From Clostridiales bacterium (GTDB taxonomy: Bacteria > Bacillota > Clostridia > Lachnospirales > WQUN01), in assembly GCA_031271295.1 (NCBI GenBank), contig JAISVZ010000179.1:1-61730 (forward strand): a DNA stretch of 61,730 nt, read 5' to 3'. The translations under genes and the position numbers were made by a program. Positions 1 through 61,639 of the stretch are shown piece after piece. Numbering within the stretch: position 1 is the first letter of the stretch; each line of letters starts with the position of its first letter. The notes beneath the pieces are model-generated. The model did not search any database, had not been told where the DNA came from, and saw only the letters and a program-made list of their open reading frames with translations.

Positions 1-298
1 CCAATCTGCTGTGGAATTGATGTACACAGCAAATTCGTTGTCGCAACAATAGCTTCAACCAATTCAAAAGGTGTTACCACCTATCAAACCAAAGAGTTTA
101 AAACTTTCAATTTTGACCTTAACAATTTAAAGGCTTGGCTGGCCGAAAACAACTGTAAAGACGTATGTATGGAATCCACAGGTAAGTATTGGATTCCTGT
201 TTTTAATTATTTGGAATCTTCTTGCGATATTACTCTTGCTAATCCAGTCACTTGGAGTTATTGCGTCCATTGTAAATCGCGGCGAAAATCTCTATGAA
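1..298 (+). pseudogene. IS110-family transposase, N-terminal fragment
   Basis: The frame is open from the first base. It reads CCGIDVHSKFVVATIA, then MESTGKYWIPVFNYLE and DITLANP, which is the N-terminal DEDD (RuvC-like) half of IS110-family transposases: the first catalytic Asp lies in GIDVHS and the Glu in MESTG. After LANP the family normally continues into a KKTDKKDA-type segment. Here it runs into unrelated codons and stops at 296-298. The junction is near base 246. The start codon is upstream of the window. The serine-containing C-terminal domain is absent, so this copy cannot be active. Confidence 0.8.
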
Positions 299-370
299 AG
301 TGTCGCCGACATCTTTTCTCAAGGTATTGTGCATCCTCATCCAACTTAATTATCTTCTCTTTTTATGCGC

Positions 371-400
371 AAAAAAACGCCCTTTTTAGGGTGCTTTTTT
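371..400 (+). terminator. Rho-independent terminator
   Basis: CGCCCT pairs with AGGGTG (one G-T pair) around a short T loop, flanked by A7 and T6 runs. It could work in either direction. Confidence 0.65.
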
Positions 401-427
401 GCGTGCTCGTTTCATTTCCTTCGGTGG

Positions 428-444
428 GGGTGTGAATAGTAACC
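428..444 (+). repeat. Dispersed motif GTGTGAATAGTAACC, copy a
   Basis: Preceded by TTCGGTGGGG. The same 25-base block occurs in reverse orientation near 3569-3594, so the two copies form an inverted repeat around the accessory genes between them. Weaker copies lie near 4351, 23345, 49023 and 57930. Confidence 0.6.
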
Positions 445-3568: not shown

Positions 3569-3594
3569 GTTACTATTCACACACCCCACCGAAG
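3569..3594 (-). repeat. Dispersed motif GTGTGAATAGTAACC, copy b
   Basis: Reverse complement of copy a at 428-444, including the TTCGGTGGGG extension, with one extra base. With copy a it brackets 3.1 kb of accessory genes. Confidence 0.65.
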
Positions 3595-3698
3595 AAGCTG
3601 TTTTAATTATTTCTGCACCTTTGAATTATAAGCTAACATTTTCATTTTCCGCAGATAGCAATTTATACTATTTCCGTTTAAAAAGCTTGAAACCGGCA

Positions 3699-3735
3699 CC
3701 CCAAAAACGCCGAAAATCACGGCGATTTTGGGGGC
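3699..3735. other. Strong hairpin of unknown role
   Basis: CCCCAAAA plus CGCCG on the left pairs with CGGCG plus TTTTGGGG on the right, around AAAATCA. No T run follows directly and no gene ends here, so it is not a clear terminator. Confidence 0.6.
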
Positions 3736-3864
3736 TTGAATTCAACTTTTTAACTTGGAATTAGTATTAGATGTACGCTGCGAAGAGCTTAACGCTGAAA
3801 ACTACCCGCACTTTTGCGCCAACTTCAGCAGGGGTAACACGGGGCTTCTGCGAAAATTAATTAT

Positions 3865-4150
3865 GCCGAAGATGCTCTGCATCATCAAAAAAATTTATAA
3901 TAGGCAGAAATACCACCTTCAAAAAAGAACAAAACGAACTGAAATACTTTTTCTTTCTTTTCGCCCAAACTAAAGAAACGCAAATTGCAGGAGCCGCAAA
4001 TCCGTTGTAATTATAGGAAAAAACAAAATGGCATTAAGGAAAATCGCAAAAAAATAGAAAATAGACTTTCGGAATTTCTATCATTCTATCATTCTATTTT
4101 CCAATTTTAGTTTTGAAAGGTATAAGCCAGCACTATAATGAGCGGGTAAT
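3865..4150 (+). repeat. 287-bp dispersed repeat, copy 1
   Basis: Nearly the same sequence as 35659-35946. It starts GCCGAAGATGCTCTGCATC, contains CGCAAATTGCAG and ends near GAGCGGGTAAT. Internally GAAAATAG pairs with CTATTTTC around an ATTCTATC direct repeat, and GATGC pairs with GCATC. There is no conserved reading frame. It could be a non-coding RNA or a non-autonomous mobile element. Confidence 0.75.
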
Positions 4151-4311
4151 TTAGGTAACGTAAAAATTCCGCGCGCATCTTTGCCGCCTGCAAAGGACAT
4201 GCTTGGATATGCTTCGGTGCAAACTATATCGCTTGCCGACATATTTGCGCCAAAGCCTCCTGTAACCCTTATAGAACAGTAAAGCAGAGCGCGGGTAAAT
4301 AAGTCGCCTTT
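4150..4311 (-). pseudogene. Possible degraded coding fragment
   Basis: On the minus strand, one frame without a plausible start reads GDLFTRALLYC, then VTGGFGANMSASDIVC and AYPSMSFAGGKDARG. The composition is unusually protein-like for intergenic DNA. It has no start or ribosome site and runs into the 287-bp repeat. I cannot assign a family. Chance is possible. Confidence 0.25.
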
Positions 4312-4350
4312 TATTTAAAGATGCAGCAATACTACTCATTTTGAGCAGGG

Positions 4351-4365
4351 GTGTGAACAGCAACC
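4351..4365 (+). repeat. Dispersed motif GTGTGAACAGCAACC, copy c
   Basis: One base differs from the GTGTGAACAGTAAC form. It sits about 40 bases upstream of the amidase promoter. Confidence 0.55.
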
Positions 4366-35524: not shown

Positions 35525-35585
35525 CTAACCTGCATGCCGCGCGGATGCGGCACGAATCGACATAAAACCAATTCGGTTTTCACTA
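35525..35585 (-). repeat. 60-bp dispersed repeat, copy B
   Basis: Its reverse complement matches 48961-49020: GAATTGG, then GTGCCG, GCGCGGCATG and AGGTTAG in the same order and spacing. An inner TGCCGC/GCGGCA hairpin is kept although the loop differs. Confidence 0.75.
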
Positions 35586-35658
35586 ATGCCTTGTCTATAT
35601 GTTGCGCGTTAATCCCGTTTTTCATCCTTTACGAACGTTTTCGGCGAATAATAATGAA

Positions 35659-35946
35659 GCCGAAGATGCTCTGCATCATCAAAAAATATTATAATAGGCA
35701 GAAATACCACTTGCGAAAAAGAACAAAACGAACTTAAGTGCTTTTTCGTTTTTTTCGCCCAATCCGAAGAAACGCAAATTGCAGAAGCCGCAAATCCGTC
35801 GTAATTAAAGGAAAAAACAAAATGACATTAAGGTGAATCGCAAAAAAAATAGAAAATAGACTTTCGGAATTTCTATCATTCTATCATTCTATTTTCCATA
35901 TTTTAGCTTTGGAAGGTATAAGTCAGCAATATAAAGAGCGGGCAAT
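35659..35946 (+). repeat. 287-bp dispersed repeat, copy 2
   Basis: Matches 3865-4150 along its whole length with scattered substitutions. The most conserved block is AATAGAAAATAGACTTTCGG followed by the ATTCTATC direct repeat. Flanking sequence differs between copies. Confidence 0.75.
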
Positions 35947-47595: not shown

Positions 47596-47763
47596 GCGCT
47601 TTCGTAGCTGTCCGGCAGGGGTTGTAGAGGGCTTCGGCGCAAAAATTGCCCGCGCTTTCGTAGCTGTTCGGCAGGGGTTGCAGAGGGCTTCGGCGCAAAA
47701 ATTGCCCGCGCTTTCGTAGCTGTTCGGCAGGGGTTGTAGAGGGCTTCGGCGCAAATTATATCG
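47596..47763 (+). repeat. 56-bp tandem repeat, 3 copies
   Basis: Units start at 47596, 47652 and 47708, each GCGCTTTCGTAGCTGTTCGG through CTTCGGCGCAAA. The last unit runs into foldback element 1. The reverse complement of 48860-48900 carries one degenerate unit. Confidence 0.9.
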
Positions 47764-47982
47764 CACAGCAATGTGCCACCTGACGCTTCAGAACATTTTT
47801 GAGCGCACCAAGTTAAAATAAAGGGTCTATTTTTGCGGTTGCGCTCAAAAATATTCTTCTCGCTGCTCTGGTGAACCAATTTTCGCCAACAAGTTGTTCG
47901 CAGAGATTAAGTTTTGCGACGGCGAAAATCGTTTCCCCGCCGCGTGGCACAATCATGCTGTGCAATATAATTTACGCCGAAG
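47744..47982 (+). mobile_element. 239-bp MITE-like foldback element, copy 1
   Basis: Bounded by about 36-bp imperfect terminal inverted repeats (CTTCGGCG, AAATTATAT, GCACAGCA, GTGCCAC in order at each end). A nested inverted repeat, TTTTTGAGCGCA with TGCGCTCAAAAA, lies inside. It codes for nothing. Copy 2 at 48621-48859 is its reverse complement with few changes and exactly the same length. Confidence 0.75.
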
Positions 47983-48156
47983 CCATCAGCATGTTCTTTG
48001 CAGGCGGCAGGGTTTGTGCGGAATTTGAACGTTGCCGATTAATCGTATGAGCGGAAATTGCGGGCGGTGCATCCAGAAATTCCAAGAGCGTCACTTTGCA
48101 TTTCTCGACGTGCCTTAGTATAATTTGGCGGTACAATTAATCCGGCGGCGCAAATG

Positions 48157-48396
48157 TGCCGTACGAGGCAAGCGCATTGCGGCGCAAATATGCCTTACGT
48201 AGCAAACGCATTGCGACATAAATATGCCTTACGCAGCAAACGCATTGCGACATAAATATGCCTTACGTAGCAAACGCATTGCGGCGCAATTATGCCTTAC
48301 GTAGCAAACGCATTGCGGCGCAAGTATGCCTTACGCAGCAAACGCATTGCGGCGCAATTATGCCTTACACGCAGCAAAAGCATAGCGGCGCAAATA
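48157..48396 (+). repeat. 34-bp tandem repeat, 7 copies
   Basis: Units begin at 48157, 48191, 48225, 48259, 48293, 48327 and 48361, all exactly 34 bases apart. Consensus TGCCTTACGTAGCAAACGCA, then TTGCGGCGCAATTA. The first and last units are the most diverged. There are no spacers, so it is not a CRISPR array. Confidence 0.93.
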
Positions 48397-48494
48397 AGTT
48401 TGCAAATAATGACGCAATCGCAAATTTTCGCTGCTTCAACTTGCGATTGCGCGGGGCTTTTGGCACACACCTGTTGCCTGAAAAGAACACACCG

Positions 48495-48615
48495 GGCTTT
48501 GCGCACAACCATGTTTCCTGCGAAGAGCACGCTGTCCTTTGCGCACAACCATGTTTCCTGCGAAGAGCACGCTGTCCTTTGCGCACAACCATGTTTCCTG
48601 CGAAGAACATGCCGG
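48495..48615 (+). repeat. 40-bp tandem repeat, 3 copies
   Basis: GCGCACAACCATGTTTCCTG occurs at 48501, 48541 and 48581, with GCGAAGAGCACGCTGTCC between. The unit's CCTGCGAAGAACATGCC end is the inner flank of foldback element 2. Confidence 0.9.
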
Positions 48616-48620
48616 CGGGG

Positions 48621-48859
48621 CTTCGGCGTGAGTTATATTGCACAGCATGATTGTGCCACGCGGCGGGGAAACGATTTTCGTCGCCGCAAAACTTAATCTC
48701 TGCGAACAACTTGTTGGCGAAAATTGGTTCACCAGAGCAGCGAGAAGAATATTTTTGAGCGCACCCGCAAAAATAAACCCCTTAACTAACTTTGGTGCGC
48801 TCAAAAATGTTCTGAAGCGTCAGGTGGCACATTGCTGTGCGATATAATTTGCGCCGAAG
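48621..48859 (-). mobile_element. 239-bp MITE-like foldback element, copy 2 (inverted)
   Basis: Reverse complement of copy 1, with the same terminal inverted repeats and nested hairpin. The two copies differ mainly in the loop of the nested hairpin (ACCCCTTAACTAAC region). Confidence 0.75.
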
Positions 48860-48960
48860 CCCCTCTATACCCCCCCTTGCCGGACAGCCTGCAAAAGTGC
48901 GGGTAAAGAAAGCGCCGCATTATTATTCTGATGCATTGCGATGCATTTATTTCTTTAGAT

Positions 48961-49020
48961 AGTGTGAAGCTGAATTGGCTTCATGCCGATTTGTGCCGAG
49001 TCTGCGCGGCATGTAGGTTA
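48961..49020 (+). repeat. 60-bp dispersed repeat, copy A
   Basis: Matches the reverse complement of 35525-35585. It is followed at once by the GTGTGAACAGTAAC motif. Confidence 0.75.
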
Positions 49021-49022
49021 GT

Positions 49023-49036
49023 GTGTGAACAGTAAC
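49023..49036 (+). repeat. Dispersed motif GTGTGAACAGTAAC, copy e
   Basis: Directly joined to the end of the 60-bp repeat, about 105 bases before the next start codon. Confidence 0.6.
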
Positions 49037-55376: not shown

Positions 55377-55414
55377 TGGGGGAGTACGGCATAAGCCGTT
55401 TACATTTGAATACT

Positions 55415-55567
55415 GGTCTTCAGGGCAGGGTGAAATTCCCGACCGGCGGTACAGTCCGCGAGTAACGGCCTTCGTTTTACGGTTGTTGCAGAATTGGTGT
55501 AATTCCAATACCGACAGTGCATAATTGCGTGGTTTCGCAATTATTAAAGTCTGGATGAAAGAGGGCG
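55415..55567 (+). promoter_or_regulatory. FMN riboswitch (RFN element)
   Basis: The RFN core is clear: CTTCAGGGCAGGGTGAAATT, then CCCGACCGGCGGTACAGTCC, GCGAG, a variable stem, GAATTGGTGTAATTCCAATA, CCGACAGT, and the closing CTGGATGAAAGAGGGCG. It senses FMN and controls the riboflavin transporter gene downstream. A terminator hairpin follows, so control is probably by transcription termination. Confidence 0.96.
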
Positions 55568-55573
55568 TGTGAG

Positions 55574-57929: not shown

Positions 57930-57945
57930 GTTACTGTTCACACCC
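57930..57945 (-). repeat. Dispersed motif GTGTGAACAGTAAC, copy f
   Basis: Reverse complement of copy e with a GG extension (GTTACTGTTCACACCC on the + strand). It lies 19 bases from a strong hairpin. Confidence 0.6.
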
Positions 57946-58140: not shown

Positions 58141-58246
58141 TGCCATATGATAATAAAAATACCAAGAAATCATAAGAAATATGTATATTTTGCCGTTCTC
58201 CGCAAATCTTCCAAAAAAATATAGAAACATGTATGGAGGAATGGAA

Positions 58247-59395
58247 ATGAAAAAGATTTCACTTAGTTTTTTTGTATTTTTCTTTTTAGTTTTTTCTGCG
58301 AGCACACTTTGCGCCGCGCAGGAGAATGTAATACCGCACGAAATACTTTCAGCAAATTTGTATTGTAATGACTACCAAATTAACTTGTCAAAATTTCCGC
58401 TTATGGACGCATACGTGGAACCAGAAAGACCGGAAGAAACATTTATCAGTGTAAAATTACTTGCAATAAATGAAATATTACTTTTGTATTCCGACTATGA
58501 TAGGTATCCTTGTGAATTCTTTACAAAGGAATACTTGTATCAATCAAATGAGTGGATGAGCCGTGCGGAATTTGAGGCTAACATGAAATATCAATATAGA
58601 ACTCATGAAAAGAGCGATCTCTATTTCGATAAGAGAGTACGTTCGTTATACTATTCAAACAATCCGCGTTTAAGCGGACATCCCCTTACGTTATCTTGCG
58701 GAGAGGATTATTATGTTGAAAGAGCATCTTTCAACATTGTGGCAAGGGGATACGAAAAAGTTCTGGATAGAGCAATTAAAAAGGGTGACGTTTCGGAATA
58801 CGAACCTGGTTTTTCCTTTATCCCGGTAATATATCCGGATGTAAACCCAGATTATTCACCCCGTGAAAAAACTGTGGTGTACGACCTCGCAGAAAGAGTT
58901 CGGGGACGAATAAAAAAAGATAACGTACTCTTAAATACTGAGAATACACCAAAATATGAGGATGGGTTCAAATTCTTCTATTATTACGAAAATGGCAAAG
59001 ATTTAGATTTGAAAAACAGCAGTTATTACCTCCCGCTGCATTATACTTCCGAAGCCCTCGGTTATGCGGTAATAAATGATGCCGAAAAAAAGAACTATTT
59101 CATTTACTCAGAAGATTACTTAGAAGAAAACCTCAATTGGAAATCCATAGAGAAAATGCAAGGTATATTTGCCGCGCTTGGTAAACTTACCGGAAACAAT
59201 GTTACTCTTCGATATGATGAAAATGATAAGAGCTTATACTTTGAAAACGAAGCGGAAACGGTGGGTGTTCCGGCGGCGGCATTTAGTGAAAAAGCCTTTG
59301 TAAGATTAACCGATGCAATGAGCGCGTACAAAAAAATAGCAAATACTGATAATGGTTCAAATAATGCGCTTAATGGCATTCTTAGTTCAATGTAA
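58247..59395 (+). CDS. Secreted paralogue 1 of unknown family
   Basis: The start is the ATG at 58247 (MKKISLSFFVFFF), 7 bases after GGAGG. The 382-residue protein has a signal peptide (FFLVFSASTLCAAQ). The mature part starts with SANLYCNDYQINLSKFPL, has EWMSRAEFEANM in the middle, and ends with a domain reading YYLPLHYTSEALGYAVI, NWKSIEKMQGIFAALGKLTG and LYFENEAETVG. The repeated 'short strand, PL, helix with LG' pattern resembles copper-amine-oxidase N-terminal-like stalk domains, but this is weak. Two further copies follow. No transmembrane anchor is present. Confidence 0.75.
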   Translation: MKKISLSFFVFFFLVFSASTLCAAQENVIPHEILSANLYCNDYQINLSKFPLMDAYVEPERPEETFISVKLLAINEILLLYSDYDRYPCEFFTKEYLYQSNEWMSRAEFEANMKYQYRTHEKSDLYFDKRVRSLYYSNNPRLSGHPLTLSCGEDYYVERASFNIVARGYEKVLDRAIKKGDVSEYEPGFSFIPVIYPDVNPDYSPREKTVVYDLAERVRGRIKKDNVLLNTENTPKYEDGFKFFYYYENGKDLDLKNSSYYLPLHYTSEALGYAVINDAEKKNYFIYSEDYLEENLNWKSIEKMQGIFAALGKLTGNNVTLRYDENDKSLYFENEAETVGVPAAAFSEKAFVRLTDAMSAYKKIANTDNGSNNALNGILSSM

Positions 59396-59400
59396 TTAAA

Positions 59401-59434
59401 GACCGGAAACGTAAATATAGTTTCCGGTCTTTTT
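59401..59434 (+). terminator. Terminator between paralogues 1 and 2
   Basis: GACCGGAAAC pairs with GTTTCCGGTC around GTAAATATA, followed by T5. It lies only 29 bases before the next start codon. Confidence 0.9.
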
Positions 59435-59462
59435 ACCATCAAATTTAAGGAGAATGATAGAA

Positions 59463-60614
59463 ATGAAAAAGATTACAATCAATATTTTTGTAACGTTAAT
59501 TTTAATACTTTTTATAAATTTCCCGTGTGTTGCAGCGCTTAACGATCCATTCACATATAATAAACTTTCGGCAAATTTGTACTGCAACGATTACCAAATT
59601 GATTTGTCAAAATTTCCGCTGATAGATATTTGCGATGAAGTTACTATACGCAATGTTACATATGTAAGTTCAGATTTTACGGATATTTTTGAGGTATTAA
59701 GACTATACAGCGGATATAATTTTGGTAATCCGGAGTTTTACACAAAAGACTATTTAGAGCAATCAAGAGAATGGATGAGCCGCGCCGAATTGGAGGCAAA
59801 TATGCTTTATAGGTACGGAGTGCGTGAAACCGGAACTATTTACAATGATAAAAAAAATCGCTCTTTATACTTCGATATGGATAGAAAACTAAGTGGTTTT
59901 ATCAAAACCGTTACTTGCGGCGAAAACTACTATATTAATGTTAGGTCGTTTTATGTTAGTACTCATGGGTACGATGAAATTCTGGAAAGAGTTATTGAAA
60001 AATCCGCAATCAATGAGTACGATCCGGGGTTTTCGGTTGCGCCTGTTATCTATCCGGAAGTAAACGAGAATTATTCATTTCATGATAATAAAGGGGAGTA
60101 TGATATGGAAAAAAGCCACAGGCAGCGAATAATTCACGATGGTGTATCTTTACTTCCTGATAGCGTATCGCGCTTATTGCCCGAAGAAAATTATTGGGTA
60201 TATGAATATGGCGATATTAACGATTGGAGAAATATCGAAAAAAGTAGTTATTATACCCCTTTGAAGCTAACTTATGAAGCTATTGGCTGCGCGGTAATAA
60301 GCGATGACGAAAAACAAAATTACTTCATTTATTCGCAGGATTACTTAGAAGAAAGCCCTAATTGGAAATCCATAGAGAAAATGCAAGGTATATTTGCTGC
60401 ACTCGGCAAGCTTACCGGCAAAACTGTTACTCTACGTTATGACGAAAACGAAAAGTGTTTATACTTTGAAAACGAGGCGGAATCTGTTGGTATTACGGCG
60501 GCGGCGTTTGACGAAAACGCTTATGTAAGAGTAAGTGATGCAACGGAAGCTTACAAGAAACTTGCGAATACGAATATCACAAGCCCGAATACCGCAATTA
60601 CTGGTAGCTTTTAA
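59463..60614 (+). CDS. Secreted paralogue 2 of unknown family
   Basis: The start is the ATG at 59463 (MKKITINIFVTLILILF), with AAGGAG upstream. The 383-residue protein is clearly homologous to its neighbours along the whole length (SANLYCNDYQIDLSKFPL, EWMSRAELEANM, NWKSIEKMQGIFAALGKLTG). The signal peptide differs in sequence but not in type. No promoter is visible between the upstream terminator and this gene, so expression may depend on read-through. Confidence 0.78.
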   Translation: MKKITINIFVTLILILFINFPCVAALNDPFTYNKLSANLYCNDYQIDLSKFPLIDICDEVTIRNVTYVSSDFTDIFEVLRLYSGYNFGNPEFYTKDYLEQSREWMSRAELEANMLYRYGVRETGTIYNDKKNRSLYFDMDRKLSGFIKTVTCGENYYINVRSFYVSTHGYDEILERVIEKSAINEYDPGFSVAPVIYPEVNENYSFHDNKGEYDMEKSHRQRIIHDGVSLLPDSVSRLLPEENYWVYEYGDINDWRNIEKSSYYTPLKLTYEAIGCAVISDDEKQNYFIYSQDYLEESPNWKSIEKMQGIFAALGKLTGKTVTLRYDENEKCLYFENEAESVGITAAAFDENAYVRVSDATEAYKKLANTNITSPNTAITGSF

Positions 60615-60626
60615 TTCTTGCAACTA

Positions 60627-60664
60627 AAGACCGGAAAGCCCACATAGATTTTTCGGTCTTTTTA
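60627..60664 (+). terminator. Terminator between paralogues 2 and 3
   Basis: AAGACCGGAAA with TTTTCGGTCTT, one imperfection, followed by TTTAT. It is the same hairpin as after paralogue 1, diverged. Confidence 0.8.
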
Positions 60665-60688
60665 TCATTTAAGAAGGGATAAATTGCA

Positions 60689-61639
60689 ATGAAAAAGATG
60701 ACATTTAAAATTTTTTTATCGTTACTATTAATTTTGTTAATTACATCGCCGTGTATCGCATCAGAACCCGAATTTTCGTATAATCAGCTAACCGCAAATT
60801 TGTATTGCAACGACTTTCAGGTTGACTTGTCCAACTATCCGCTCATTGATATTTGCGATGACATTACAAAACAGGAGGTTACTTACGTAAGCAAAACGCT
60901 GTTGGAGATTTATGAAATATTGAATTTATACATTAGAACAAGTTCAGATCATACCAAATTTTACACAGGAGATTATTTAGAACAATCAGATGAGTGGATG
61001 AGCCGTGCTGAATTTGAAGCTAACATGTATTATAGATTTAAAACACGTGAGACAAGCGGACTTTATTATGACGAAAAAATCCGACTCTTATTTTATTCGG
61101 GTGGTTCTATAAACGCATACATCTACACAGTTTCTTGTGGTAATAATTATTATTTTGATATACAGGATTTTTATGTAGACGTGTACAACTATAGGGAAAT
61201 TTTAGACAGAGTAATTGAAAAGGATGTGATTAATGAATATGAACCGGGTACTTCGTTTGAACCTGTAATTTATCCTAATGAAACTGAAGATTTTTTCTAT
61301 CATGATGATGACATTGTGTATGAGTTAAGGACACACAGAAGAATGGAGTTGGAAAAAAATGATGTTCTTTTACATCCGGATAGTTCATTCCTTATGCAAA
61401 AATATAAGATATACGAACGCTTTAATGCGAATGACGAACATAATTATGACTTTGCATCCTATTATATCCCATTGCAGTTAACCTACGAAGCCCTCGGCTT
61501 CGCGGTAATAAGCGATGCCGAAAAACAAAACTATTTCATTTACTCAGAGGATTACTTAATAGAAAGCCCCAACTGGAAATCCATAGAGAAAACGCAAAAC
61601 ATATTTGCCGCACTAGTGTTATGTACCGTTGAAATTTAG
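60689..61639 (+). pseudogene. Secreted paralogue 3, C-terminus cut off
   Basis: 316 residues, homologous to paralogues 1 and 2 from the signal peptide (MKKMTFKIFLSLLLILLITS) to NWKSIEKTQNIFAAL. At base 61614 or so the alignment stops. The paralogues continue GKLTG and about 65 further residues; this copy has VLCTVEI and a stop. The sudden loss of similarity points to an insertion rather than drift. The truncated protein lacks the last third of the C-terminal domain and may not fold. Confidence 0.75.

Follow-up and report, generated by a model that had tools for sequence, protein, structure and literature searches.

The Foldback elements of eukaryotes (FB/Galileo) combine very long inverted repeats, expandable tandem repeats and a variable middle, and are associated with P or Mutator-type transposases. 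Among bacterial repeats, REP, BIME and REPIN elements are mirrored palindromes located between genes. The general view is that bacteria eliminate long palindromes (SbcCD); despite this, dozens of kilobase-long nested palindromes persist in the genome described here. These composite units resemble Foldback elements in their long inverted repeats with internal tandem repeats, but the likeness is anatomical only: the composites are bacterial, are flanked by an 8-bp duplication and have ends that point to IS66, not to transposases of the P or Mutator type. They share mirrored intergenic palindromes with REP/BIME/REPIN, but are much larger and carry target duplications and DDE-type ends.

Bacterial IS-derived MITEs such as MITEPsy1 (PMC3189936) and MITECca01 (PMC9769881) are, like the composites, non-coding, high-copy, mostly intergenic and lineage-specific, with terminal inverted repeats, a target duplication and a transposase made elsewhere. 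Whereas MITEPsy1 is 100 bp long (PMC3189936), the composites consist of ~1–1.7 kb of nested mirror shells and tandem repeats and, unlike for IS-derived MITEs, their exact parent was not found in the host. They have no internal transposase, possess terminal inverted repeats with a target duplication (6 of 13 units) and occur in many copies; complete two-arm units, at ~0.9–1.7 kb, exceed the usual MITE size (< ~600 bp), and are therefore termed MITE-like rather than typical MITEs. The ISBst12-like IS66 element ISDge4 (PMC12898284) shares with the composites the GTnACTnnTCA end pattern and 8-bp target duplications, but in the composites the transposase is absent and foldback DNA replaces the genes. 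The composites show two features of an IS66-mobilised element, IS66-type ends and an 8-bp duplication. The known kind to which the composites belong is the MITE-like non-autonomous element, and they are unusual in their size, nested mirror architecture and IS66-type ends. Through them, MITE-like DNA present in high copy is linked to the IS66 family by common ends and 8-bp duplications.

Anatomy of the arms and the composite unit

The window, i.e. the whole 61,730-nt stretch of DNA that was analysed, is the entire contig C72 of a 3.69-Mb genome in 220 contigs; the assembly is of the metagenome type. An earlier note had described two opposed 239-bp foldback elements 638 bp apart, each with ~36-bp terminal inverted repeats and a nested repeat. 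Both coordinates and spacing are reproduced. The arms span 244 nt (Table 1), are 95% complementary and are separated by 634 nt; trimmed to 239 bp they occupy 47744–47982 and 48621–48859, with a spacing of 638 nt. The terminal inverted repeats extend over 32 nt at 91%, reaching ~40 with bulges, and the nested repeats of each arm correspond to two internal hairpins. The arm folds as a three-way junction composed of an outer stem, formed by the terminal repeats, and the two hairpins, with an energy of −63.6 kcal/mol versus −33.5 ± 3.7 for shuffles (z −8.1).

Each unit has a variable core enclosed by inverted-repeat shells that are nested within one another. In the 48 copy-bearing stretches of the genome that were inspected, the arms are always convergent (mirror-image). 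Fourteen convergent pairs lie on single contigs, ten with both arms full-length and four with a partial second arm, and their cores measure 252–923 bp. Where an arm stands alone, it lies either at a contig end, oriented as one half of a broken pair would be, or in a shortened unit; lengths of 349–623 bp are seen only in reduced derivatives. Outside the arms, the units have in common the mirror modules ACCCGCACTTT, GGCTGTCCGGCAAGGGG and TTGTAGAGG. The outermost ends, where not truncated, are either T1 (GTTACTNTTCACAC, 14 bp) or T2 (GGNGTGCAGCTAAAAATTATTGG). In six units tested, in silico folding pairs 75–81% of the bases, at much lower energies than shuffled sequence gives; for the whole window composite the fold energy is −503.5, versus approximately −260 for shuffles. 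Because every occurrence of the element is as a mirror-image arm within a larger composite, the mobile unit is the composite.

The window copy lacks its left terminus, being cut 3 bp past the stop of an upstream MMPL gene, and its tandem arrays of 56, 34 and 40 bp are expanded. Its ORFs have no Pfam match, so there is no transposase gene inside. This copy is probably a fixed, immobile relic that has lost its left end. The earlier note's statement that the window holds no transposase with such ends is accurate; a truncated IS110-type transposase at 4–240 is unrelated. This fragment (DEDD) lies at the contig start and is immediately followed by a solitary T1 terminus, the two together taking up window 1–443.

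Table 1. Features of the composite unit and other T1 sites in the window
Feature	Position	Strand
Left outer shell of 56-bp copies (GCGCTTTCGTAGCTGTYCGGCAGGGGTTGTAGAGGGCTTCGGCGCAAA...), three in tandem, which run into the beginning of the left arm	47596..47755	+
Left arm, ~239-bp three-way-junction foldback element	47741..47984	+
Core with an inner inverted repeat (GCATGTTCTTTGCAGGCGGCAGGG / mirror) plus tandem arrays	47985..48618	+
Core tandem arrays	34 bp at 48145-48396; 40 bp at 48497-48606	
Right arm, inverted version of the left arm, 95% identical	48619..48862	-
Right outer shell (ACCCGCACTTTTGCAGGCTGTCCGGCAAGGGG... mirror and further shell modules)	48863..49020	-
Right terminus T1 (GTTACTGTTCACACAC), IS66-type end of the composite	49021..49036	-
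Second, degenerate T1-ended unit, 796 bp, without full-length 239-bp arms	3569..4364	.
Solitary T1 terminus adjoining a truncated IS110-type remnant	428..443	-
Solitary T1 terminus accompanied by a short remnant of shell	57930..57945	+

Other repeats accompany these units. A ~107-bp inverted-repeat element (ATACTATTTCCG ... GGAATTAGTAT) at 3659–3770 is a nested insertion in the shell of the degenerate unit. A second dispersed repeat (AAAATAGAAAATAGACTTTCGGAATTTCTATCATTCTATC) is found at window positions 3846–4108 and 35640–35903 and also forms the core of several composites, on contigs C14, C117 and C186. The module TAACCTRCATGCCGCGCRGA..CGGCAC.AATCG, common to 35530–35600 and 48960–49036, is a further dispersed repeat.

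Copy number and variation among arms

The earlier note would have given up its reading had there been no other copies in this or related genomes and no matching transposase; the host genome contains dozens of further copies. There are 58 matches to the 244-bp element, and 40 full-length places were scored. The terminal repeat pattern has 70 forward and 68 reverse matches, compared with 0 in a reversed control, indicating about 70 elements in the genome. No match to the 244-bp element came up among 60 relatives, of which 36 belong to the same family, and neither GTDB species genomes nor viral contigs contain the exact terminal repeat. The family is therefore, as far as tested, confined to this lineage, where it has spread to dozens of sites in one bacterium. 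Contigs often end within these repeats, and the family accounts for many of the breaks between contigs of this assembly. Each of the 17 units examined lies between genes, except for one spurious overlapping ORF. The orientations of the neighbouring genes are mixed (6 divergent, 9 tandem and 1 convergent).

The copies form a natural series in which the growth of palindromes, the exchange of arms and the decay of loops can be followed. Across 47 aligned arms, paired columns are near-invariant, with a mean minority frequency of 0.006; the corresponding values for the two apical loops are 0.15 and 0.21, ~25–33 times those of the stems. The consensus folder favours conserved columns, which accounts for part of this contrast, but the apical loops also stand out in a single-sequence fold. 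Compensatory changes are almost absent (1 of 61 pairs, where invariant stems cannot show any), so selection on structure is not proven. The arms of a pair are mutual best matches in only 2 of 10 cases. This rules out general gene conversion as a source of homogenisation within units and indicates that arms have been exchanged between units, since the arms of one unit are usually not closest relatives.

Cutting of hairpin tips offers an alternative account of the loop variation. It forms part of a more speculative reading, to which we give limited credence, in which the units are a bacterial counterpart of Foldback: kilobase nested palindromes mobilised by IS66, whose arms repeatedly extrude as hairpins or cruciforms, whose stems are kept by structure and whose loop tips are cut and remade. 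If this were true, the stems would be kept by selection or template correction, and the genome would constitute a natural record of hairpin-tip processing.

The same contrast between stems and loops, together with the intergenic placement, would suit a unit that is kept as a structured RNA or as a DNA structure with a host function (a terminator, or a nucleoid or supercoiling site), its mobility being secondary or past. We consider this unlikely. The units have no Rfam match, the single compensatory change lends the idea little, although invariant stems could reveal none, the flanking gene orientations follow no one arrangement, and the target duplications described below show mobility.

Target duplications and the mobile unit

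The 8 bp to the left and right of the unit were compared for 13 end-pairs. The flanks agree at 7 or more of the 8 positions in 6 of the 13 units. None of the 156 mismatched flank pairs does so, and the observed agreement is reached in 0 of 20000 permutations; the remaining 7 end-pairs have no visible duplication. Perfect 8-bp duplications flank L047 (AGTAGAAC/AGTAGAAC, T1 ends, both arms inside), L084 (ATCGCCGC/ATCGCCGC, T2 ends) and L043 (GTTCATAG/GTTCATAG, T1 ends). Three further units agree at 7 of 8, the T1-ended L084b and L087 among them. The T2 boundary was set 2 bp outward, guided by the duplication itself, and the T1 cases (L043, L047, L084b and L087) are therefore the unbiased ones. 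T2-ended composites occur genome-wide, e.g. L084:3195–4636 and L057:929–2156, and this end type also leaves 8-bp target duplications. In L047 and two L084 units both arms lie within the duplicated site, which indicates that the composite moved as one piece. The composite is real and has been mobile in the past.

These results bear directly on what the pair is. The description of it as a MITE-like foldback stands as to kind, but not as two independent MITEs, since every copy examined sits within a composite. Target duplications do exist; they flank the composite, outside both arms, rather than the elements that the earlier note had singled out. Similarly, the pair that was expected to form a large cruciform is real, but is a single mobile unit with other ends, outside the interval spanned by the arms. 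It is improbable that two 239-bp MITEs inserted independently, side by side and in opposite orientation. Each arm does have its own ~36-bp terminal inverted repeats, but arms were seen only within composites, the copies are flanked by shells that face outward, the orientation is invariably convergent, and no duplication or empty site is seen at the arm borders. We regard it as probable that the pair represents the two arms of one non-autonomous, composite nested foldback DNA transposon with IS66-type mobilisation. The computations that bear on this assignment show the copy number, the obligatory pairing of arms in mirror image, the lack of copies in relatives, 8-bp duplications at the level of the composite, placement between genes, and T1-like ends on two elements elsewhere that carry an IS66 transposase.

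High-copy intergenic palindromes in mirrored pairs would also fit a REPIN/BIME-like system with a RAYT (Y1 HUH) transposase as its mover, but this is very improbable: the units are 20–50 times the length of a REP, and the 8-bp target duplications, like the linear inverted termini, are characteristic of the DDE type. An assembly artefact, i.e. a chimeric inverted duplication, might be suspected in a metagenome-type assembly whose contigs often end inside repeats, but is scarcely credible given 14 pairs with different cores within contigs of up to 121 kb, arms that are 2–10% divergent, differing flanks and duplicated target sites.

T1 ends and IS66 transposases

The composite transposon is most likely moved by an IS66-family transposase provided in trans. 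This enzyme would bind the outermost 14 bp (GTTACTNTTCACAC) and move the mirror-symmetric unit in one piece, leaving 8-bp target duplications. Shells, arms and cores would have no independent movement, and these internal parts would diversify inside the unit through tandem duplications, deletions and recombination between copies. From the end sequences we infer both which type of IS66 transposase would act in the host and its action on these units; an IS66 element serving T1-ended units would have GTTACTRTTCACA ends.

Elements with T1 ends and perfect 8-bp duplications occur outside the host. L139 is a 236-bp element (AAGGAAAA) in the Symbiobacteriaceae MAG Lab288P3bin58; Lab288 appears as a sample name in studies of higher-termite guts. 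The T1 sequence is also present in a genome of the same family as the host. Insect guts are a putative habitat of the family. L153 (1247 bp, CCGACTTA) lies on a viral-collection contig and has no transposase. L145 (2272 bp, TAAATGGA), also on a viral-collection contig, encodes an IS66 transposase (PF03050, 1.2e-13; NF033517, 1.1e-31) and a small companion ORF, and its ends match T1 at 14/14 and 13/14 positions. In a genome of the same order, the 3010-bp contig L165 is bounded exactly by the 15-bp ends GTTACTATTCACAGT / ACTGTGAATAGTAAC, which match T1 at 12/14. It carries an IS66 transposase, only ~24% identical to that of L145, and a companion ORF that is 50% identical to its L145 counterpart. 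The companion ORF of L145:695–2966 and L165:1–3010 is conserved, ~100 aa long (YQxDKRSGITYAYE) and without a Pfam family. L165 contains an extra 215-aa ORF, possibly a passenger gene.

ISDge4, an ISBst12-group IS66 element that transposed, has the ends GTGACTACTCAGCA / GTAACTGCTCAGCA and an 8-bp repeat (PMC12898284); these ends match T1 at 8–9 of 14 positions. In the host, the one IS66 element found intact (L162) has the ends GTAACTATTCAGTAG, related but not identical to T1 (9/14), and no visible duplication. The search for a transposase with matching ends, as envisaged in the earlier note, thus located T1-like ends on IS66 elements elsewhere, but no transposase with exact T1 ends in the host genome (93.8% complete, repeats collapsed). 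Literature searches for the end sequence found nothing. No transposase was found for the T2 ends.

Other candidates were rejected. The genome contains no IS256 (PF00872) or ISL3 (PF01610) transposase, and an IS6-like element on contig C142 ends in GGTAGTGTAAAC rather than T1. An IS5 transposase adjoining T1 on contig C145 was judged to be a later insertion into a unit, and single T1-like matches in L138, L140 and L141 have no second end. Elsewhere in the window, an FMN riboswitch (Rfam RF00050, 92 bits) is located at 55412–55570, and three tandem paralogous genes of ~1.2 kb each occupy 58181–61639.
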